The notes beneath the pieces were generated by a model that saw only the letters and a list, made by a program, of their open reading frames with translations, did not search any database and had not been told where the DNA came from. This document shows, piece by piece, positions 1 through 51,955 of a stretch of 64,000 nucleotides of DNA. The translations under genes were made by a program, and so were the position numbers. Origin of the DNA: Enoplolaimus lenunculus. Taxonomy: Eukaryota > Nematoda > Enoplea > Enoplida > Thoracostomopsidae. The stretch's first letter is position 1. Every line of letters starts with the position of its first letter. The stretch spans positions 124,001-188,000 of the forward strand of contig JASANG010003360.1 of the NCBI GenBank assembly GCA_030248215.1, written 5' to 3'.

Positions 1-3000
1 TATTTGTTGTTTTGGCTCGTTGCTATATGTAGTAGAAGTTATAGGTGCATGTTTTACTTGTTCCTCAGTTGAAATTTTTGACGAAGCGGTTGCTTCAGAA
101 ATAAATGATCTATCTTGGGACTCGGATTTATCAGCGGAATCTACTGTGGTGATATGGCTAGTTTTTGAAGAAGCCATTGATGAAGAAATTGTAGCAGCTC
201 TTAATAAGCCGCTGTCGGGTACGTGGGATACTTTTGAATTTAAAATTAGGTCAGAAGTTTTACCGGTTGATATACTGTTTGATATCTGGTCTTTGTTAGT
301 TTTAAATGCGTCGCGTTCGGATTGTTCTAAACTCGCTAAAGTTGCATTAATCACAGAGTTCACCGACTGGATTGCTTGCGGAACTTGTGTCGATGATTTC
401 AAAATAGGCTCTCGGGATCCTTGAGATAGCTGTGGTTTCAACGTTGGATCTTGGGTGATATTTTGTTTCAGAACACTGGTAGAAGTTTGATATCTAGACC
501 CGCCAGGCAATGGTGAAAGGCTGGCTTCTTTGCTACTCGAGGTGCCGCCGCCTTTTCGGGCCGGATACTGGCCTTCAGAATCGCTACTTTGAAGCACGCC
601 GCTAAAATCCATATTTGCTCCGCGATTAACTTGCCAATTTTCGTTGCAATATTTTCGCACTGGATCAAACACAGGAATATTGCGTTCAGGATTTTTTCGT
701 CTGCTATGGAAGACTTCTGCTAGTTCGTTTGATACAAGAGGGCTCGCTGTAGATTGCGGTCGGCCGGCCCTTGTTGGAGAGATTGGAGGTTCAACGGTCG
801 ATTGAGCAACGAGTCTATGGTCCTGCCAAACTGCTCCTATGTCCGTCCGGTTGGCGGAAATTGCAACTTCTCCAGGTTGGCGATATGATTGGGCACGTCG
901 CGGTTTTCGTGATAACCCTGGATCATGCGCTGAAGATTCCGTTGTTGCTGCTGGTGCCGGTGCCTTCATTTGGATTAAATTGGTGTTTCGTTGAATGTTT
1001 CTAGTATCGGTATCTGACGTTCCACTAGAAGTAATATCACTTCTAGCGGCTCTGTGAGCATCGGCAAAAGTTGGCCGTGTTTGTTGAGGTTGAAAATCTA
1101 CCGTTACTCGGTGTGCTGCAATATTCTGTTTTCCAGTTGAATCAGGTCCAGTTGTTCGCTGAATGGGACTTTCTGATGACGTCACTGAGTGTACAGAATG
1201 ACGCCAAAACTCAGGAGGGCTATCTTTCTCGTCGCCGCGTTTCTTCAGTATAGAGTCAAGCGCGGGGGCCGCTGTTTCAGCGCCTTTGATCTTTTCCGCC
1301 GATGGTCGTTTTAAAATCGAATGTGGTGCCAGCGTTGCGACGTCTTGGCTTTGTGTTTCCGCTGACCACGGTCCATTTTCGTCGGATTTTTTCAAAATCG
1401 ATGTCGTTTGCGCGATTTCTGCTGCTGATATCGGAGCAATTTCTGGTGAAGAGCTTTTGCGTCTTGATGATCGTAGAATCGATGTGATTGGATGTGATTC
1501 GCGTTGCTCCCAGCTGTAGTCTTGCAGACCAGCCCCTCTGGTTGCCTTGTCACCGCTAGGGTCGTCTGAACTCACTCCAATTGACATCGATCTTCGTTTC
1601 AAGATTGACGGAGGCGGCGGTGTATCATCACCAATGCTGGTTACGCTTGACTTCTTCAGTATTCCTTGAGTTGCCTCCGCTTCTTGTAATTTTGTTGGAC
1701 TTCCTTCAACAACGCCTGTTATCGTCGGTTGTGAATGTTTCAGTATCGGTTTAATTTGATCCGTATCCGCCGCTCCAGTCGATTGTGATTGCTTCAAAAT
1801 TGGATGTAGCTTGCGTTCTTCTTTTGGTTGCGTCACGCTGGTTGCAGTTTGTCCGGCTTTTTCCGCGACAGCTTTATCGATGTCTGGCGATTGGCTACAA
1901 AGTTTCGGCCGGTATTCAGTTCCGGTTTGAAGTAACGCTGGCGGTGAGTCGGTTTGACCACTGGGAACTTCAAAATCTGTGGTTTTCGCTCGTCTGCTGC
2001 CACGATGAGGAAGACTATGAAACGCAGTTGCCGTACAGCGTCGTTTTTGAGCGTCTTTATCATCTGCTCGACTCAGTGTTTCCATATAATCAGCGATAAT
2101 TGGTTTCGACCTCTCTTGGCGTAGCTCTTGTTGCTGCGGCATTGTTTCCATTTCTTCTGTAGTTTCATCGTTCATAGCTCCTTGCTCCCGTCTGTTCGGC
2201 TGATATTGACTAACAGTTGCAGTTGCACTAAATTGCCGTGCTTTGTCTAGACTTGCTTTTCGAGCTCTCCATCGTTCCAAGTTTGATGTCGCTGATCCGG
2301 ACGCAGAGCTGACTGAGTGAAATTCAGACGACCCCCCTGAATCGCCGCCTGACTGTTTATAGCCACCATCGTCCTTAGAAACCTCTGATGGGGACAGTGC
2401 TGCCATTGCAGGGCTCTTGTTAGCATCTGGCTGAGCATGGAGCGTACTCACCTTGCCAATAGACGCTTTGGTTGTAGTCTTTGACGCTGACAAACCTTCT
2501 GGAATAACATCTGTATTAGAGTTTAGTTTAGGCTTTGCTGAATAAGCAGATGATGGAAAACCGGCTTTCGCTAAAAGTTTATTTGAGACAGCACCCCTGG
2601 TTTGGTTCTGTTCCCCATCGATTTGATGGGTCCCCACCCTACCCTGTTGAACAGATTGACCTTGGACAACAGTCGGAGTGCTTGGAGTGACAGATGTGAC
2701 GGCAAAGCTTGTTCCACCCATAGCAGTTGTTGACCCACGAGATGTTTCTGGCGTCGCAGCGGTGGGTGTAGTGGTTGTAATTGCAGCTGCTGTTGTGCGT
2801 ACTGTTTTTGTGCCTGGATCTCGGTAGCATTGTGTTCGACGAATACTTCCAGCGGTTTGAGCATAATCTGCAGGTGGAACTTTACCCATGGCAGATGTGG
2901 TATCCAGTTTGGTAGAAGGGACTGAATCAGGTGTTGCTTTTATAGGACCATGACTTGATTTGCCGTCTGCAACAGTTCCAGTGTGAGAGCTTGAGCTTTC

Positions 3001-3948
3001 AATGCTCCCTTTTGCTGCTGGAGACGACGATTCACGACCAGTTGACGCAATTTTGAGCTGTGGAGCGCTAGGAGTTCCGCTGATAGATGCAAGCGAATCG
3101 TAATGCCGGGAACGGTTAGCAACAGAACTTGCGTTACTCGATCCAACTCGAAGAGCGTGTAACCCGGCAGGAAAGCTACCCCCACCAGCAGCTACTCTCG
3201 CTTTGTGACCAGCAGATTCTGTACTAGAACCAGAGCTTACAGACCACGGTCGTTCGTAAATCATTTCTTGCCGGATTTGGTTCAGTTTTAGCCTTTGAGT
3301 TGCTAAATTCACTCCTGGTAAGTTTTCCCGTTCCCACGGTTGAGTTAAACTAGAGATACTAGGTATAGTTTGACCAGAATTTGAATTCAATTTGTCGTTT
3401 TGACCTAAAATGTGATTACCCACATGTGCAAGTTTGCTCGCTTGAGTATCTGGAGTGTCGATTAGTAAATTTTCAACGAAAGTTCGACCACGAACTGGAT
3501 TTGAGTTGAGGTCCGGTGAGGCTTTTGACGGATTGAATGTTGAAACGAATCGTTCGTCGTGACGATTTGAAATTGAAATTTTTGAATGCGGTTTTGATGC
3601 CGAAATTAATTTGAACGGTATTGCTGAATAAACGTTGCTTTGAGCTACTGCTGGCCCGTGTAATTGTGTTGTTGAAATACAAGTGTTGACTGGGAAGTTA
3701 ATTAAGTTGGAGCTAACGGTAGTGTGTTGATCTGTGGTATTTTTAGGCAGTTGCGGTTGAATAAATACGCTTTTGCCTTGGAGCACTTGCGCACTGGAAA
3801 CCGCTAAGTTTGCAGATTTACGATGCTCGCTGGAGTAGCGATTTGATTGGTTCGGCGGCAAATCTTGTTCGCTGACTGCAGTGGTTTGTTTTTGGCTCGA
3901 TGGAAACGAAGGAAACTTAGATGATATAATGTCATTATAAGGCACTCT
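1..3948 (-). CDS. Exon 8, giant open exon with clustered ILK motifs, runs off left edge
   Basis: This frame has no stop from the acceptor AATTTCAG at 3949 to base 1, which is 1316 codons, far beyond chance. It encodes residues 469-1784 and continues outside. Composition is Ser, Thr, Gln and Pro with few hydrophobics, so it is probably disordered. Two less simple stretches stand out: one near residues 670-705 containing TQRLKLNQIRQEMIYERPWS, and one near 1560-1600 containing FHSRRKNPERNIPVFDP. Ten short Ile/Val-Leu-Lys/Arg motifs occur, eight between residues 1185 and 1368, many of the form S-I-L-K or G-I-L-K. A consensus donor AAG|GTGAGT lies inside it at 2452/2451 and may give a shorter splice form. 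No family recognised. Confidence 0.82.
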
Positions 3949-5036
3949 CTGAAATTAACACTGCAGTCGCTGTAACCTAATCCAAATGGAGATGCCATTC
4001 CGAATTCATTTATAAATTTTCATTTAAACGCAACTCAAACGTGTCTGTAGGAACTACCCTGGTCTATTCACCCTCAGTCGCCATGTACGGACGAAAACCA
4101 AAATTTTGTATTAAGGTTTAGCACTAAAATTGCGTTCAACTTCTCGCTCGCTTCATACGCGATCATTGTTCTAATATATCCTACGGCTGTCTACTAAAAA
4201 TTTCTGGATCTTCCATCGGTCGTAGCCAAACGCCAGGAACACTGTACACAAATTCCAAAGTCTCAAAACATATTGGGGTAGAACTTTGTAGACGGAAGTT
4301 GAAACCAAAAATTATTTAAGAGCTTTAATACATTTCTACCAGGTTCGTAGCCAAGATTTCATCAATGTCCACGCGCAAAAATATTTTTTTACTTCCAGGA
4401 CGTAGAAAGTTATTCCAACACCTGTTTGTGCTTAGGCGTAAGCCCATCTTAGACCTAGGTTTAGGTTTAGGTTTACGGATATGCTTATACTACTGTTACG
4501 GCCCTGGGTGGAACCATGTTTCTGCGGGAGTGCAATAGAAGCTTAGGCTTTAGACTAACTTTTTTTTTGCTTTGTATTAGGTATAATCTCATTCTTGTGC
4601 TTAGGCTTATGTACCACCTCATTCTTGTACTTAGGCCTAAGCCTATGCTTAGACCTAGTCTTAGGCGTAAGCTTAGTTTAGGTTTAAGAATATGTTTATA
4701 CTACTGCTACGACCCTGTTTCATACATAGGCCACACGGTTCAAGCAATAACAAAACATTTAAAGAGCTCAACCGGTTACGAAAACGCAAAAATTCGCCAA
4801 AAAACAATTCTTTGCATGTCTCCAAAACGTTTTCGGATTGGGGGTAATGACAGAAGAAACGCTCTCTCTGTCCGCTCACCCCGGTAAAATGACAAAAATG
4901 ATTCAAGATTGCCTGCAAAAATATCCCTCATGAGCTTAATTTTGAGTAAATTAACAAACAATTGGTGCACTCTCTTATTCGAGTAAGTTGTCGTTCAAAT
5001 CTATACGCAAAAACAGCCGATTAATATCGTGTATAT

Positions 5037-11027: not shown

Positions 11028-11340
11028 GGCTTATGTTACTTTTAGGAGCGTCCTGGTTTCTGGTGGGTCTGTAAAAGAGTAGGTTAAAATTCTAGATTAC
11101 ATTTTTTTGCTTAGGTTTAGGCTTAGGATTTAGGAACACTTTTGCAACGCTTAGACTTAGACTTAGGCTTAAGAATGCACTTTTTCAACGCTTAGGCTTA
11201 GGCTTAGGCTTAAGAACACACGTTTGCAACGCTTAGGCTTAGACTTAGGAACACACTTTTGCAACGCTTAGGCGTAGGCTTAGGAATAGTTTAATCTGCT
11301 GTTACGCCCCTAAGCCAATGTTGCATTTAGGGGCGTAACC
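11028..11340. mobile_element. Family-A element (TTAGGC core), expanded copy
   Basis: Left GGCTTATGTTACTTTTAGG, then GCTTAGGCTTAGG hexamers broken by AACACACTTTTGCAACGC spacers repeated four times. Right ACTGTTACGCCCC-like, followed by an inverted echo of the terminus. Confidence 0.7.
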
Positions 11341-12463: not shown

Positions 12464-12991
12464 GCACGGTGTATATCACTTACATTATCATAATCCGACA
12501 CATCGTTCCTTTGAGGGGATCCTGTTGAGCTTTTTGAGTACCCTGACGTTGACGATGGATCCTTGTGGACGGGCAGTGTACCTGCAATTTAAACAAGGAT
12601 AAAACCAAATTCAAACTGTTTAAAATAAAAAAATCTTTGGGGTTTTTCCACCAGTCGGTGTTGGTCCAAAAATGGTGTGACTTATAAATTTTTGCTTATT
12701 TGAGTTTCTCATGACTCCCGTTGACTAACCGATATAATCGAAACAAAACAAAATGTCGCCGCATCGCTCAGTACACGAGAAATCTGAACCAAAACCAAAA
12801 AATTTTGTATTAACATTGTGTACTAAAATTGCGTTTGGCTTCTTGCTCAATTTGCTAAACGAGCTGTAGTCACTAAAATATTTCAAGTGGCCCCACTCGT
12901 GTCAAAAAGTTCTGAATCCGTAATGTGAACAAACTTTAACCCCCGGAAATGGCCTGGCTTCGCTATTATGAACTTTCTTGCAAAACGTCAC

Positions 12992-13240
12992 CGATGTTGC
13001 TTGAGCCCCGGAATGGTGACGGGTCAATGGCGTACCGTTTATCCCTGGTTTATCAAACTGTTGATGTTCTATGAGGCCATTATTAGCGGGTGCTGGCAGT
13101 ACCGGTTGAGGACGACGGACAGCTGTGGGAGAACGAGACCCAAGAATCAATGCGGTCGATGATCGATTGATTGGACGAAACGCTGAATTTTGACTGATTC
13201 GTAGTCGAGAGCTATGATGGCACGATGGAGATAGCGATTT
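12992..13240 (-). CDS. Exon 7, Ser/Arg/Pro-rich segment
   Basis: This exon encodes residues 386-468 (83 codons, phase 0 at both ends). It begins KSLSPSCHHSSRLRISQNSA and ends HHSGAQATS. The acceptor is the strong GAGTTTCAG. The donor chosen is TCG|GTGACG at 12991, because it gives phase 0 and so fits exon 8; the reading frame stays open for about 30 codons beyond it, so a later donor is possible. The acceptor's flank (13243-13440) contains a degenerate duplication of about 105 bases in the 407-base intron. Confidence 0.68.
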
Positions 13241-13647: not shown

Positions 13648-13998
13648 CGGTTGCAGTGATTCAGTAACGGTTTCTCGTGATTTGTTCGATCTCTCCAAGG
13701 ATGCTGATTCCGTCAGGATCTGATGCTGTTTAGAAGGTAAACGGTTGTTCGCACCAACTGTGACAGGCGCTTGACCGGTAGGGTCGAACGATACCCCCTC
13801 GTGCCTTGGGAGGTTCGTTGTTTTTGGACTTGATTTTCGCGAGTTGGCCAACACGTCTTGAACCGAAGCGCTCAGGATGGCTAGAGTCGCAGGTGGCGGT
13901 GGCATAATTTTTGGCGAATGCTGCTGGGCAATGAACGCTTTTGTTGCGATCCGAGGCTCGTGCGGCAGACTGTTGTAGCCGTTTTGGCAAACAGGAGG
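13648..13998 (-). CDS. Exon 6, Pro/Ser-rich segment
   Basis: This exon encodes residues 269-385 (117 codons, phase 0 at both ends, so it can be skipped without frameshift). It holds a proline run (KIMPPPPATL), SPK sites and TESASLERSNKSRETVTESL near the end. The acceptor is GTATTTTAAG and the donor is CCG|GTATGT. The PPPP stretch could bind SH3, WW or EVH1 domains (inference). The upstream intron (13999-15463) carries the GCC-rich minisatellite at 14390-14727. Confidence 0.75.
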
Positions 13999-14389: not shown

Positions 14390-14727
14390 AAAATTTCTCG
14401 CCAAAATTTTAATTTTCCGGCCAAAATTTGAATTTCGCGCCAAAATTTGAATTTTCCCGCCAAAATTTGAATTTCCCGCCAAACTTTGAATTTTCCGCCA
14501 AAACTTGAATTTAGCACTAAAAATTGATTTTTCTAGCCAAAAATTGAATTTGCCGCCAAAATTTGAACTTTCCCACCTAAATTTGAATTTGCCGCCAAAA
14601 TTTGAATTTTCCCGCCAAAATTTGAATTTTCCGCCAAAATTTGAGCTTCCCGCCAAAATTTGAATTTTCCTGCCTAAATTTGAATTTGTCGCCAAAATTT
14701 GAATTTCCCGCCAAAATTTGAATTTCC
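14390..14727. repeat. Intronic 17-20-bp minisatellite with repeated TTTCCCGCCAAA motifs
   Basis: About 18 degenerate copies of GCCAAAATTTGAATTTTCCC lie in intron 5. The words TTTCCCGCCAAA or TTTCGCGCCAAA start at 14433, 14453, 14472, 14608 and 14704, with near matches in most other copies. These fit the E2F/DP consensus TTTSSCGC. The minus-strand ORF across it (14273-14695) is a repeat by-product. Confidence 0.85.
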
Positions 14728-15463
14728 AGGCTAAGGTGTCCCTAATGTTCCTATCATATAAAAATATTGTCCACTACACTGTTTTTCATACATTTCAATG
14801 TCCTAGACAGTGTCTCTGCAAAACAGTCTTGTCCGGATAGAGTTTCCGTGAAACTCTATGATGTCCGCGAATGGCGGTGATACTATTGGAAAATGAAGGG
14901 TTTCGATAAAACGTAAGCCGGACAAGCTATTGAATTTCTTTTTGGAGGGGACATTTCGTGTGCCGAGTGCACGTATGGTAACGTGTGAGTGACAAGACAC
15001 GGAAATTTTATTTTTATGTTGCAAAGAGTAATATGTTTGTCGATTGCTATGTAAATTTTACGTAACTAATGATTAGCAAGCTATTACCCACACTTTGGCA
15101 TTTTTAAACGCGGGTATACCCACTTCAACAATTTGGCCCTAAAAATCAGAAACGAACCTTTTTTCCGCATGACCTCAATAAAGTAAACTTAAGCTTTAGA
15201 CTAAATTTTGCGTAGCCTTAGGCTTAGGCATACGTTAATTCTTATGCTTAGGAATTTGCTTATGCTACTGTAACTGCCCTGTTCTATACATTGGCCAAAA
15301 CTGCTTACATGGCTTGTTCTTACCCACGGGTAGCGCTCTCGACTCTGTGTGGAACAAGTACGATATTAGAAAATGATACTAAAAACAAAGTAAAAGTTGC
15401 TAAGTATCCAGTGACGCCTGACCCAACTGAACTGCAATAATTTTCCGTTTCCTCAGGACTTAC

Positions 15464-15540
15464 TAATTTTTGACCTTCGTCGAAATCAAACGATCCGCGT
15501 CTTGTATCCCGATTGCTACCGGAACGCCAAGAATTAACCT
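15464..15540 (-). CDS. Exon 5, 77-base micro-exon
   Basis: This exon encodes residues 243-268: EVNSWRSGSNRDTRRGSFDF followed by DEGQKL. The acceptor is TTGTTTCAG and the donor is a textbook TTA|GTAAGT, phase 0. The frame continues open past the donor for about 50 codons, so intron retention could give an alternative C-terminus here. The site RRGSF fits a basophilic kinase motif (R-R-x-S), which is an inference from the local sequence. The exon is separated by only 463 bases from exon 4. Confidence 0.7.
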
Positions 15541-16003: not shown

Positions 16004-16165
16004 CTGTCTGGAGCGCATCAAGTGCGTTCTGTAGCGTTCCGTTTCCGTGGCTATCTTGGTGATAACTGTGCGACAGCCGCATTACTCGACGTCGGCGAGA
16101 ATTGTTTGATGATGTTGGACTTCTACGACGGTAGATATCAGTTGTCAACGGGCCCGGAGGTTGGT
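16004..16165 (-). CDS. Exon 4, Arg-rich segment
   Basis: This exon encodes residues 189-242, including DIYRRRSPTSSNNSRRRRVM and a short amphipathic piece LQNALDALQT at its end. The acceptor is AACTGTTTCAG and the donor is ACAG|GTGACG, phase 1. The last G joins AG of exon 5 to give Glu. The two RRR clusters could act as nuclear-localisation or membrane-contact signals, but that is inference from composition alone. The intron on its upstream side (16166-18322) holds a 0.3-kb AT array and a truncated family-A element. Confidence 0.75.
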
Positions 16166-19328: not shown

Positions 19329-19636
19329 TGACCCATGTAAAGATCAGGGGCGGAGAGATTTTCTGTGGGACTGCAGTAGAGTAAGCTTGTTAAGCTTTAG
19401 ACTAATTTTTTTTGGTTTGGCTTAGGCTTAGGCTTAAGCTTAGTCTTAGGAATATGGTCATTCTTACGCTTAGGTTTACACTTAGGCTTAGGCTTAGGAA
19501 CATGGTCATTGTTACGCTTAGGTTTAGGCTTAGGCTTAGGCTTAGGAACATGGTCATTGTTACGCTTAGGTTTAGGCTTAGGCTTAGGCTTAGGAATATG
19601 CTGATAATACTGTTCCGCCCTTGTTTTTTACATTGG
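19329..19636. mobile_element. Family-B element (TTAGGC core), perfect 8-bp duplication
   Basis: TGACCCATGTAAAGATCAGG to TTTTTTACATTGGC, flanked by CCGTCCGC on both sides. Contains the 48-bp tandem repeat. Confidence 0.85.
19451..19594. repeat. 48-bp tandem repeat inside a family-B element
   Basis: AACATGGTCATTGTTACGC or variants start at 19451, 19499 and 19547, and the next partial copy starts at 19595. Each is followed by TTAGGTTTAGGC-type hexamers. Small ORFs on both strands (19402-19671 and 19412-19693) are products of the repeat. Confidence 0.9.
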
Positions 19637-24179: not shown

Positions 24180-24406
24180 CTTTGTCTAAAATTAGTCGAT
24201 GTGTAATTTTCTCGATTTTCCATTCCAACATTTGGTTGTTGTCGTTGTTGGTGTTGCCATTGTTGTTGTTGTTGTTGTTTTTGGAGTCTCCTATCGTGAG
24301 AACGTCGCCGCTTTTCGCGAAGAAATTCACGGAACGATCGCCGATCGCGACTTATCTGTTCGCCATTATGATCACTTGATTGGTTGTCTTCATCGCTGGA
24401 CTGGAG
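24180..24406 (-). CDS. Exon 2, charged Arg-rich segment with poly-Gln
   Basis: This exon encodes residues 74-148 plus two bases of codon 149. An acidic start (LQSSDEDNQ) is followed by a strongly basic block (RDRRSFREFLREKRRRSHDR) that could form a helix. A Gln-rich run with six consecutive Gln follows, and then a neutral tail. The acceptor is a strong TGTTTTCAG and the donor is AAAG|GTAATC, leaving phase 2. The AG left over joins the G of exon 3 to make an Arg codon. The CAA repeat is an expandable microsatellite inside coding sequence. A small transposon relic (23925-24104) ends about 75 bases past the donor. Confidence 0.75.
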
Positions 24407-25542: not shown

Positions 25543-25761
25543 CTGACGTTCTCTCGACCGATACGAGCGTGATCGTTCCCGAAGGGTTCGCCGCGTCTTT
25601 GATGAAGCTCTTTGTCTCCTACCACCGGAACCATTATGGGCTGCCGGATCCGGATCTGATTTGTAATCGACTAAACTCGAATCACCGTCGTCTGCTGGAA
25701 GTTGGCAAGTGATATTTCCGGATGTAGAGGGATTATGCAACGAAATTGTCGAATGTAACAT
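25543..25761 (-). CDS. Exon 1, probable start codon, Arg/Ser-rich N-terminus
   Basis: This exon encodes residues 1-73, starting MLHSTISLHN and ending in an Arg/Ser-rich stretch (RERSRSYRSRERQ). The ATG at 25759-25761 has an in-frame TAG 51 bases upstream, which supports it as the start. That TAG also forms a possible acceptor (CTGTAG, exon edge 25809), so the exon may extend to 25809 and begin with 5' UTR or with coding sequence from an upstream exon. The donor is CAG|GTAAAG, phase 0, and it fits the phase-0 acceptor of exon 2 after a 1.1-kb intron. The RS-like tail resembles phosphorylated basic linkers; no domain is visible. Confidence 0.7.
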
Positions 25762-26390: not shown

Positions 26391-26553
26391 CGTAGCCAGC
26401 TCACCACCTTGCGCGGGGTGACTAAAACTTTTTCAGGAGTGACATACAAGGGTTTTCAACTACTTACAAGCGAGGTTGAACATTTTCTAGGGAGGGGGTG
26501 CCAAATTCTTTTGGGATGGAGCTGAGCACCTGGCTTTCCGCTCGCTATGAGCC
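26391..26553. mobile_element. Family-D element
   Basis: CGTAGCCAGCTCACCACCTT at the left, then TTTTCAGGAGTGACATACAA and CTCGCTATGAGCCCG at the right. Confidence 0.65.
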
Positions 26554-27448: not shown

Positions 27449-27716
27449 GGTCAATGTTACTTTTGAGGGTCGTAACAGTCAATTCAGCGTATTCCTAAGC
27501 CTAAGCCTAAGCGTTACATAAGCGTATTCCTAAGCCTAAGCCTAAGCCTAAGCGTTACAAAAGCGTATTCCTAAGCCTAAGCCTAAGCCTAAGCGTTACA
27601 AAAGCGTATTCCTAAGCCTAAGCCTAAGCGTAACCAAAAAAATGTAGTCTAGACTGTAAACCTACTCTTTTACAGACCCACCAGAAAACAGGACGGCCGT
27701 AAAAGTAACATGGGCC
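27449..27716. mobile_element. Family-A element with four hexamer blocks
   Basis: GTCAATGTTACTTTTGAGGG to AAAAGTAACATGGGCC. The core has GCGTATTCCTAAGCCTAAGC repeated four times, joined by GTTACAAAA-like spacers. Confidence 0.8.
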
Positions 27717-30404: not shown

Positions 30405-30592
30405 TCTAGATCCGCTGTTGGTTGCAGTATAGACGAGGCTTAGGCTTAGGCTCTAGATCCGCTGTTGGTTGCAGTATAGACGAGGCTTAGGCTTAGGCTC
30501 TAGATCCGCTGTTGGTTGCAGTATAGACGAGGCTTAGGCTTAGGCTCTAGATCCGCTGTTGGTTGCAGTATAGACGAGGCTTAAGCTTAGGC
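30405..30592. repeat. 47-bp tandem repeat, four copies, with TTAGGC tail
   Basis: Starts are at 30405, 30452, 30499 and 30546. Each copy has TCTAGATCCGCTGTTGGTTG, CAGTATAGACGAGGC and two TTAGGC units. The first three are identical; the fourth has a TTAAGC variant. The low divergence means a recent expansion. Confidence 0.95.
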
Positions 30593-30699
30593 TTAATCCT
30601 TGGCGTGTAATCAGTTATAGAAATCGATGAGATATCAAAGTGATCAGGTTTCAGGAGGCGAGTTGCGGTGAATTCGTCACAGAAAAAAGTGCTTGCAAT

Positions 30700-51014: not shown

Positions 51015-51955
51015 TTGCGTAGGCTTAGGCTTAGGCTTAGGAATAGCCTCATCCATATGCTTAGGCTTAGGCTTAGGCATAGCCTCATCCATATGCTTAG
51101 GCTTAGGCTTAGGAATAGCCTCATCCATATGCTTAGGCTTAGGCTTAGGAATAGCCTCATCCATATGCTTAGGCTTAGGAATAGCCTCATCCATATGCTT
51201 AGGCTTAGGCTTAGGAATAGCCTCATCCATATGCTTAGGCTTAGGCTTAGGCATAGCCTCATCCATATGCTTAGGCTTAGGCATAGCCTCATCCATATAC
51301 TTAGGCTTAGGAATAGCCTCATCCATATGCTTAGGCTTAGGCTTAGGCATAGCCTCATCCATATGCTTAGGCTTAGGCTTAGGAATAGCCTCATCCATAT
51401 GCTTAGGCTTAGGAATAGCCTCATCCATATGCTTAGGCTTAGGCTTAGGAATAGCCTCATCCATATGCTTAGGCTTAGGCTTAGGCATAGCCTCATCCAT
51501 ATGCTTAGGCTTAGGCATAGCCTCATCCATATACTTAGGCTTAGGAATAGCCTCATCCATATGCTTAGGCTTAGGCTTAGGCATAGCCTCATCCATATGC
51601 TTAGGCTTAGGCTTAGGAATAGCCTCATCCATATGCTTAGGCTTAGGCATAGCCTCATCCATATACTTAGGCTTAGGAATAGCCTCATCCATATGCTTAG
51701 GCTTAGGCTTAGGAATAGCCTCATCCATATGCTTAGGCTTAGGAATAGCCTCATCCATATGCTTAGGCTTAGGCTTATTAATAGCCTCATCCATATGCTT
51801 AGGCTTAGGCTTAGGAATAGCCTCATCCATATGCTTAGGCTTAGGCTTAGGAATAGCCTCATTCATATGCTTAGGCTTAGGCTTAGGAATAGCCTCATCC
51901 ATATGCTTAGGCTTAGGCTTAGGAATAGCCTCATCCATATGCTTAGGCTTAGGTC
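51015..51955. repeat. TTAGGC-rich minisatellite with 234-bp higher-order repeat
   Basis: About 27 monomers consist of a 19-base core (AATAGCCTCATCCATATGC or close) plus two or three TTAGG(C) units, giving lengths of 30 or 36. Seven consecutive monomers with lengths 30, 36, 36, 30, 30, 36, 36 and the same point variants (A or C before ATAG, TAC for TGC) occur twice in tandem, at 51169-51402 and 51403-51636. Since 30, 36 and 234 are multiples of three, ORFs of 326 aa (plus) and 347 aa (minus) arise; they are repeat by-products. The left flank is a family-B terminus (50940) and the right flank a family-G-like CG-rich piece. Confidence 0.95.

Follow-up and report, generated by a model that had tools for sequence, protein, structure and literature searches.

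A very large exon of a likely supervillin orthologue in the nematode Enoplolaimus lenunculus carries a cluster of ILK-type motifs

The stretch of DNA analysed here (the window: 64,000 nucleotides, positions 124,001 to 188,000 of contig JASANG010003360.1, assembly GCA_030248215.1) comes from the nematode Enoplolaimus lenunculus and raises a simple question: to what gene, and to what kind of protein, does the exceptionally long stop-free frame at one end of its minus strand belong? Our answer is that the frame is very probably one very large exon of an orthologue of supervillin (SVIL), a linker of actin, myosin and membrane at the cell cortex. The gene most likely encodes roughly 4,800 residues, with the giant exon supplying a long, probably disordered N-terminal part. 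On this evidence the gene is a new member of a known family, and its unexpected part is an array of short motifs of the form IL[KR]. Positions outside the window are given on its contig, C260, where the window is C260:124001-188000; the assembly comprises 296 Mb in 3185 contigs.

RESULTS

An open frame of 1591 codons and its borders

The minus frame is free of stops from window position 3954 to 1, which is 1318 codons to the window edge or 1316 counted from the exon base at 3948, and in the adjoining contig sequence it stays open to C260:123182, giving 1591 codons from stop to stop. At the frame's own base composition the chance of a stop is 0.051 per codon, the mean open run is 19.5 codons and the probability of 1591 open codons arising by chance is 4e-37. 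The G+C content at codon positions 1, 2 and 3 is 0.54, 0.50 and 0.33, and the longest plus-strand frame opposite the exon in the window has 140 residues. A genome search with the window part (four of four candidates scored) returned one match, the sequence itself, and no second copy.

As modelled, the whole giant exon is C260:127948-123183 (4766 nucleotides). With a slash marking the border, its acceptor reads TTAATTTCAG/AGAG (TTTCAG) and its donor GATTGG/GTAAGT; the donor GG/GTAAGT at the end of the frame is a near-perfect consensus.

1..3948, minus strand: giant coding exon (modelled exon 8), window part, 1316 codons; from the open frame, splice model and codon scores
3949..3968, minus strand: splice acceptor region GACTGCAGTGTTAATTTCAG, 5' of the giant exon; from the sequence

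An original prediction, made from the letters of this stretch, had described a stop-free minus frame of 1316 codons running from 3948, with an acceptor at 3949, and had argued that a random frame would stop within tens of codons. Our recount, the computed mean run and the TTTCAG acceptor of the splice model bear this out, and the frame also scores as coding (below). The end that the prediction gave to the exon, window position 1, has to be moved to C260:123183.

Codon usage of the giant exon

Coding potential was measured with two codon scores. The first was trained on 2,626 codons of the other modelled exons and applied in blocks of 300 nucleotides (4500 of the 4766). The giant-exon frame scored 15.3 to 32.8 and was the highest of six frames in all 15 blocks, the best competing frame on either strand reaching 12.6, and 300 intron blocks averaged -15.8 with a maximum of 4.1; the last 266 nucleotides of the exon scored 27.6. 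This score is partly circular, in that the giant exon had contributed to the score by which its training exons were picked out, and the intron control blocks doubled as background. The second, harder score used only 990 codons of C-terminal exons and kept the control region outside the background. It gave 3.5 to 19.6 for the giant-exon frame, which outscored both other frames of its strand in 14 of 15 blocks, against a control mean of -13.6 and maximum of 5.8. Three of the 15 blocks fell under that maximum, a point against coding in those blocks. Because the frame is open and the codon scores point the same way, the giant exon is very likely coding over its full length, the three blocks being less certain.

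A gene model of about 37 exons

The gene was modelled on the minus strand by a dynamic programme over splice sites and codons that could start anywhere below window position 26500 (exons upstream of that position lie outside its search range) and was forced to end at the headpiece stop; a second run, anchored on conserved blocks, refined the C-terminal part. Joining the runs gives a model of 39 exons and 4,880 residues, or about 37 exons once two doubtful ones (C260:79387-79376 and C260:71231-71115) are set aside. It spans about 83 kb, of which some 57 kb, with 31 further exons including the two doubtful ones, lie past the left edge of the window. Upstream of the giant exon are seven modelled exons between window positions 12484 and 25761, encoding 467 residues, all of them from the splice model only, without homology support.

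12484..12581, minus strand: modelled exon 7
13036..13240, minus strand: modelled exon 6
13648..13969, minus strand: modelled exon 5, with a weak acceptor (score -2.7)
15324..15540, minus strand: modelled exon 4, 3' end doubtful
16004..16122, minus strand: modelled exon 3
24180..24400, minus strand: modelled exon 2
25543..25761, minus strand: modelled exon 1, with the ATG

These seven were recovered without the exon coordinates of the original prediction, which had 468 residues for them, and the gene does leave the window as predicted. Its total of eight exons, however, gives way to about 37, and the giant exon, which had been placed in the 3' part of the gene, becomes exon 8 with 31 modelled exons downstream.

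The next large open reading frame (ORF) after the giant exon is modelled from an acceptor at C260:120172, in a phase that fits the giant exon (a one-in-three match). On the same strand and outside the window lies a second very large frame, of 811 codons (C260:120285-117853), part of which is modelled exon 9 and which matches no Pfam family.

Supervillin-like C-terminal domains

We base the supervillin identity on the last modelled exons, because they encode gelsolin-like repeats and a headpiece that matches supervillin best. A downstream exon (C260:75449-75688) matched a gelsolin in PDB at 1.9e-8, and spliced pieces passed the Pfam cut-off for Gelsolin (6.2e-8) and for the villin headpiece family VHP (2.9e-16), with DUF7904 (0.0025) and a second Gelsolin match (0.027) under it. 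For the two-exon headpiece the best PDB match was supervillin 2k6m (E 1.6e-16, 63.2 bits), ahead of villin (48.8 bits, 5.5e-12). A genome-wide Pfam profile search also placed VHP over the cut-off at C260:66849-66938 (E 5.9e-9); the single TAG within this match sits just before the modelled exon start, and the last exon encodes what looks like the closing part of a villin headpiece. Two other places in the genome, G000:C13:15184-15291 and C473:102313-102420, likewise carry a headpiece over the cut-off.

When compared with what we take to be the human SVIL sequence, an inexact query, model residues 3287-4880 align to residues 416-1788 with 28% identity (E 4e-152). The alignment is supporting evidence only, because the query is inexact and the C-terminal model was built with that sequence in mind. 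The remaining five pieces of the comparison all start upstream of model residue 3287 and have E-values of 0.083 or worse. Among six patterns for blocks that we assume to be conserved in supervillins, three were plausibly matched (RYQTQP, SGEEDW and ASKEDF), and LAARED is also in the model, so that conserved blocks ahead of and inside the gelsolin part are represented; among the presumed N-terminal motifs, those of the IARY and EKYG kinds had no match and the ERRRQL kind gave two chance-like matches.

Several results weigh against the supervillin assignment or against extending it to the giant exon. The last exon alone (28 residues) is closest to villin, with supervillin 2k6m 12th of the 40 matches listed (0.0023), and another single exon matched fragmin only (0.055). 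A Pfam search with ten single ORFs of the contig gave nothing over the cut-off (Gelsolin 0.14, zf-CCHC_5 0.14, Nuc_recep-AF1 0.0072), and a genome-wide search with the Gelsolin profile found three places, none on C260, perhaps because introns interrupt the supervillin repeats and their sequences have diverged. Between the giant exon and the presumed human sequence there is no match. A TAA overlaps its donor, so that a form ending there is possible, and the phase matches are weak evidence because in-frame joining is built into the splice model. Our confidence in supervillin was slightly lowered because the harder coding test was weaker and because the last exon alone ranks villin first. From the model we nevertheless infer that the giant exon and the gelsolin and headpiece exons probably form one gene.

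Properties of the encoded N-terminal region

The open frame is high in Ser, Gln, Thr, Ala and Pro and low in Cys, Trp, Met and Tyr, and falls on the disordered side of the charge-hydropathy boundary (0.402 versus 0.420). The protein search that had been proposed for it, run on the window part, was uninformative, with no Pfam family, no PDB sequence and one irrelevant NCBIfam match (E 0.039). The N-terminal half of mammalian supervillin belongs to a large disordered sequence (PMC6192639); it binds myosin IIA, actin and the kinase L-MLCK and goes with raised myosin activation (PMC5802837; these and the other articles are cited from excerpts). By position and composition, the giant exon may be an enlarged version of this region. 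It would then form a flexible N-terminal tether, with the C-terminal half and its links to actin and membrane on one side and, on the other, the partners brought together by supervillin at the cell cortex. The supervillin model also holds a run of 72 glutamines in modelled exon 10 (C260:114640-113274, outside the window), and poly-Q runs of 9 to 13 occur in modelled exons 8, 10 and 11.

An array of IL[KR] motifs

The open frame contains nine xIL[KR] motifs, at residues 718, 736, 764, 783, 825, 852, 879, 901 and 1183. Eight of them lie within 187 residues, and six of the nine fit [GS]IL[RK], the SILK docking pattern of PP1.

1243..1803, minus strand: eight IL[KR] motifs, in reading order PILK, PILK, GILK, SILK, SILR, SILK, SILK, SILK; from the motif scan
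397..408, minus strand: ninth, distant motif, PILK; from the motif scan

In 20,000 shuffles of the 1591-residue frame, IL[KR] occurred 0.45 times on average and at most 5 times (9 observed), and the strict form [GS]IL[RK] 0.09 times and at most 4 times (6 observed). The whole model has ten IL[KR], the tenth in exon C260:79660-79471; 2,000 shuffles gave 1.6 on average and never more than 7. ILK has the highest enrichment of all tripeptides that occur five times or more (8 versus 0.24 expected).

At the DNA level the nine copies have seven distinct nine-base cores and flanks that are 28-35% alike. The window part of the exon holds four repeat families, of which two touch the array (a 19-nucleotide pair at 79% and one copy of a 16-nucleotide pair) and none spans or follows the IL[KR] copies. 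The varied codons and unlike flanks mean that recent DNA duplication does not explain the motifs, and the cores appear to have been kept, or to have arisen repeatedly, at the protein level. What the copies have in common is an ILK core with S, P or G in front of it. Over the next six residues eight of nine copies have a Ser, at a variable position, six have a K or R and five have both.

The array as a candidate PP1 docking site

SILK is a docking motif for PP1 (PMC10066265, PMC8786283, PMC5437018), and we tentatively regard the cluster as a putative PP1 docking array, a reading that we hold at somewhat less than an even chance. The further step, in which eight or nine SILK-type motifs recruit several PP1 molecules by avidity and without a canonical RVxF motif, is putative and more doubtful. 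PP1 docked here would adjoin the myosin and the kinase held by the supervillin scaffold, and its docking could be tuned if Ser residues next to the motifs were phosphorylated. Phosphorylation inhibits the SILK motif of KNL1 (PMC6715587), and given a Ser after the core in eight of nine copies, accompanied by a basic residue in five, a similar phospho-switch is conceivable.

A change of SILK to SAAA in mouse Rif1 reduces the affinity for PP1 about 20-fold (PMC5437018), and the non-canonical SILK of Inhibitor-3 contributes once RVxF is deleted (PMC10066265). One article suggests that scaffolds of archvillin, kinase and PP1beta might exist, with no binding test in the excerpt cited (PMC8783446). 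Supervillin and bifocal are the two proteins common to two PIP82 proximity datasets, PP1 being tied to bifocal (PMC11827603).

Against PP1 docking stands the lack of a partner motif: the RVxF pattern [RK]x(0,1)[VI]{P}[FW] has no match in the 4,880-residue model, nor has a stricter form, five loose RVxF-like matches having another first residue. Because no RVxF accompanies the IL[KR] motifs in the model, PP1 recruitment is a lead and not a result. In what we take to be human SVIL there are three RVxF-type matches, in the C-terminal half, and the presumed human SILK site follows the RYQTQPVT block, whereas the array here precedes it. SILK is described as always N-terminal to RVxF in an article in which the SILK match of LAP1B did not carry the PP1 interaction (PMC3792071, as excerpted); the match in Scribble was not needed for PP1 binding (PMC8569552), and removal of the non-canonical SILK of Inhibitor-3 hardly changed affinity (PMC10066265). 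A search of the open-licence literature found no report linking supervillin or SVIL with SILK, an absence that is weak evidence.

Other features of the window

Six other ORFs of the window gave one weak and irrelevant Pfam match (0.16), Rfam gave no match at the gathering score, and a tRNA search found none. Searches for COX1 and for SL1 had no match either; the SL1 result covers 50 scored candidates out of 112,346, with no control giving a signal, and carries no weight. Tandem arrays with TTAGGC/GCTTAG units lie at window positions 51023-51953, 27494-27633, 19419-19600, 11109-11284 and 30405-30593; we take these units to resemble the nematode telomere repeat. An array with a 19-base unit (AATTTCCCGCCAAAATTTG) at 14392-14727 sits inside a repetitive minus-strand frame of 166 residues, a long frame that is no evidence of a gene.

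DISCUSSION

Two explanations would remove the giant exon from supervillin. That the open frame is an artefact, either chance or the shadow of a plus-strand gene, could draw on the three blocks that the harder coding test leaves under the highest intron control, but the probability of chance is 4e-37, no plus-strand frame opposite the exon in the window exceeds 140 residues and the frame tops all six in every block of the first score, so that we give it almost no weight. A better case can be made for two separate genes, the upstream one closing with the giant exon at the TAA in its donor and supervillin starting further downstream: this TAA is in frame and overlaps GG/GTAAGT, the in-frame joining is a property built into the model, and apart from the main alignment every piece of the comparison with the presumed human sequence has an E-value of at least 0.083. 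However, the donor that closes the frame is a near-perfect consensus, the acceptor of the next large ORF (C260:120172) is in phase with the giant exon (one in three), and mammalian supervillin itself has a long disordered N-terminal region (PMC6192639). We consider a separate gene unlikely, and a single supervillin gene very probable.

The motif cluster leaves more room. With a probability that we put close to even, it is some other linear motif, for instance a set of basophilic kinase sites or a new kind of actin- or membrane-binding repeat. The Ser (8/9), K/R (6/9) and combined (5/9) residues after the core fit such sites, as does the missing RVxF partner, and SILK matches can be non-functional (PMC8569552, PMC3792071); what has been kept, though, is S, P or G followed by ILK, which resembles the PP1 SILK core, and the position of the Ser varies. 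That the cluster is instead a functionless product of recent tandem DNA duplication or of low-complexity chance is rather improbable. The frame is indeed rich in Ser, Gln and Thr with poly-Q runs, and two of four repeat families touch the array, but none of the 20,000 shuffles of the same composition reached the observed count, the nine copies have seven distinct cores and flanks only 28-35% alike, and no repeat family spans them.

The model resembles supervillin/archvillin in its C-terminal gelsolin-like repeats and headpiece closest to 2k6m, in its long disordered-looking N-terminal part and in its many exons; human SVIL, with 35 coding exons, gives isoforms of about 205 and 250 kDa (PMC6192639). 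It differs from the mammalian protein in its length (about 4,800 residues, about twice those isoforms), in a single exon of 4766 nucleotides and in poly-Q of up to 72. The giant exon has nine IL[KR], whereas the human sequence, as we take it to be, has one. Among human forms, the N-terminal insert of SV4 (residues 277-670) is likewise a sizeable addition to the N-terminal coding part of this gene (PMC6192639); compared by length, it has about 394 residues against about 1589 in the giant exon. The PP1 regulators Rif1, KNL1 and Inhibitor-2 share the ILK core in a disordered region (disorder here being judged from composition), but carry SILK together with RVxF in the excerpts cited, whereas the giant exon has nine ILK-type cores and the model lacks any RVxF match.

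An anonymous-looking giant exon thus probably belongs to a conserved actin-myosin scaffold, and the N-terminal part of supervillin can more than double the length of the protein. Should PP1 bind to the array, a myosin-activating kinase and a phosphatase would meet directly on supervillin, and the single SILK site that we presume in human supervillin would gain interest. Multivalent recruitment of PP1 without RVxF is a form not described in the cited excerpts. If that reading is true, one scaffold would hold myosin II, kinase and phosphatase together at the cell cortex.

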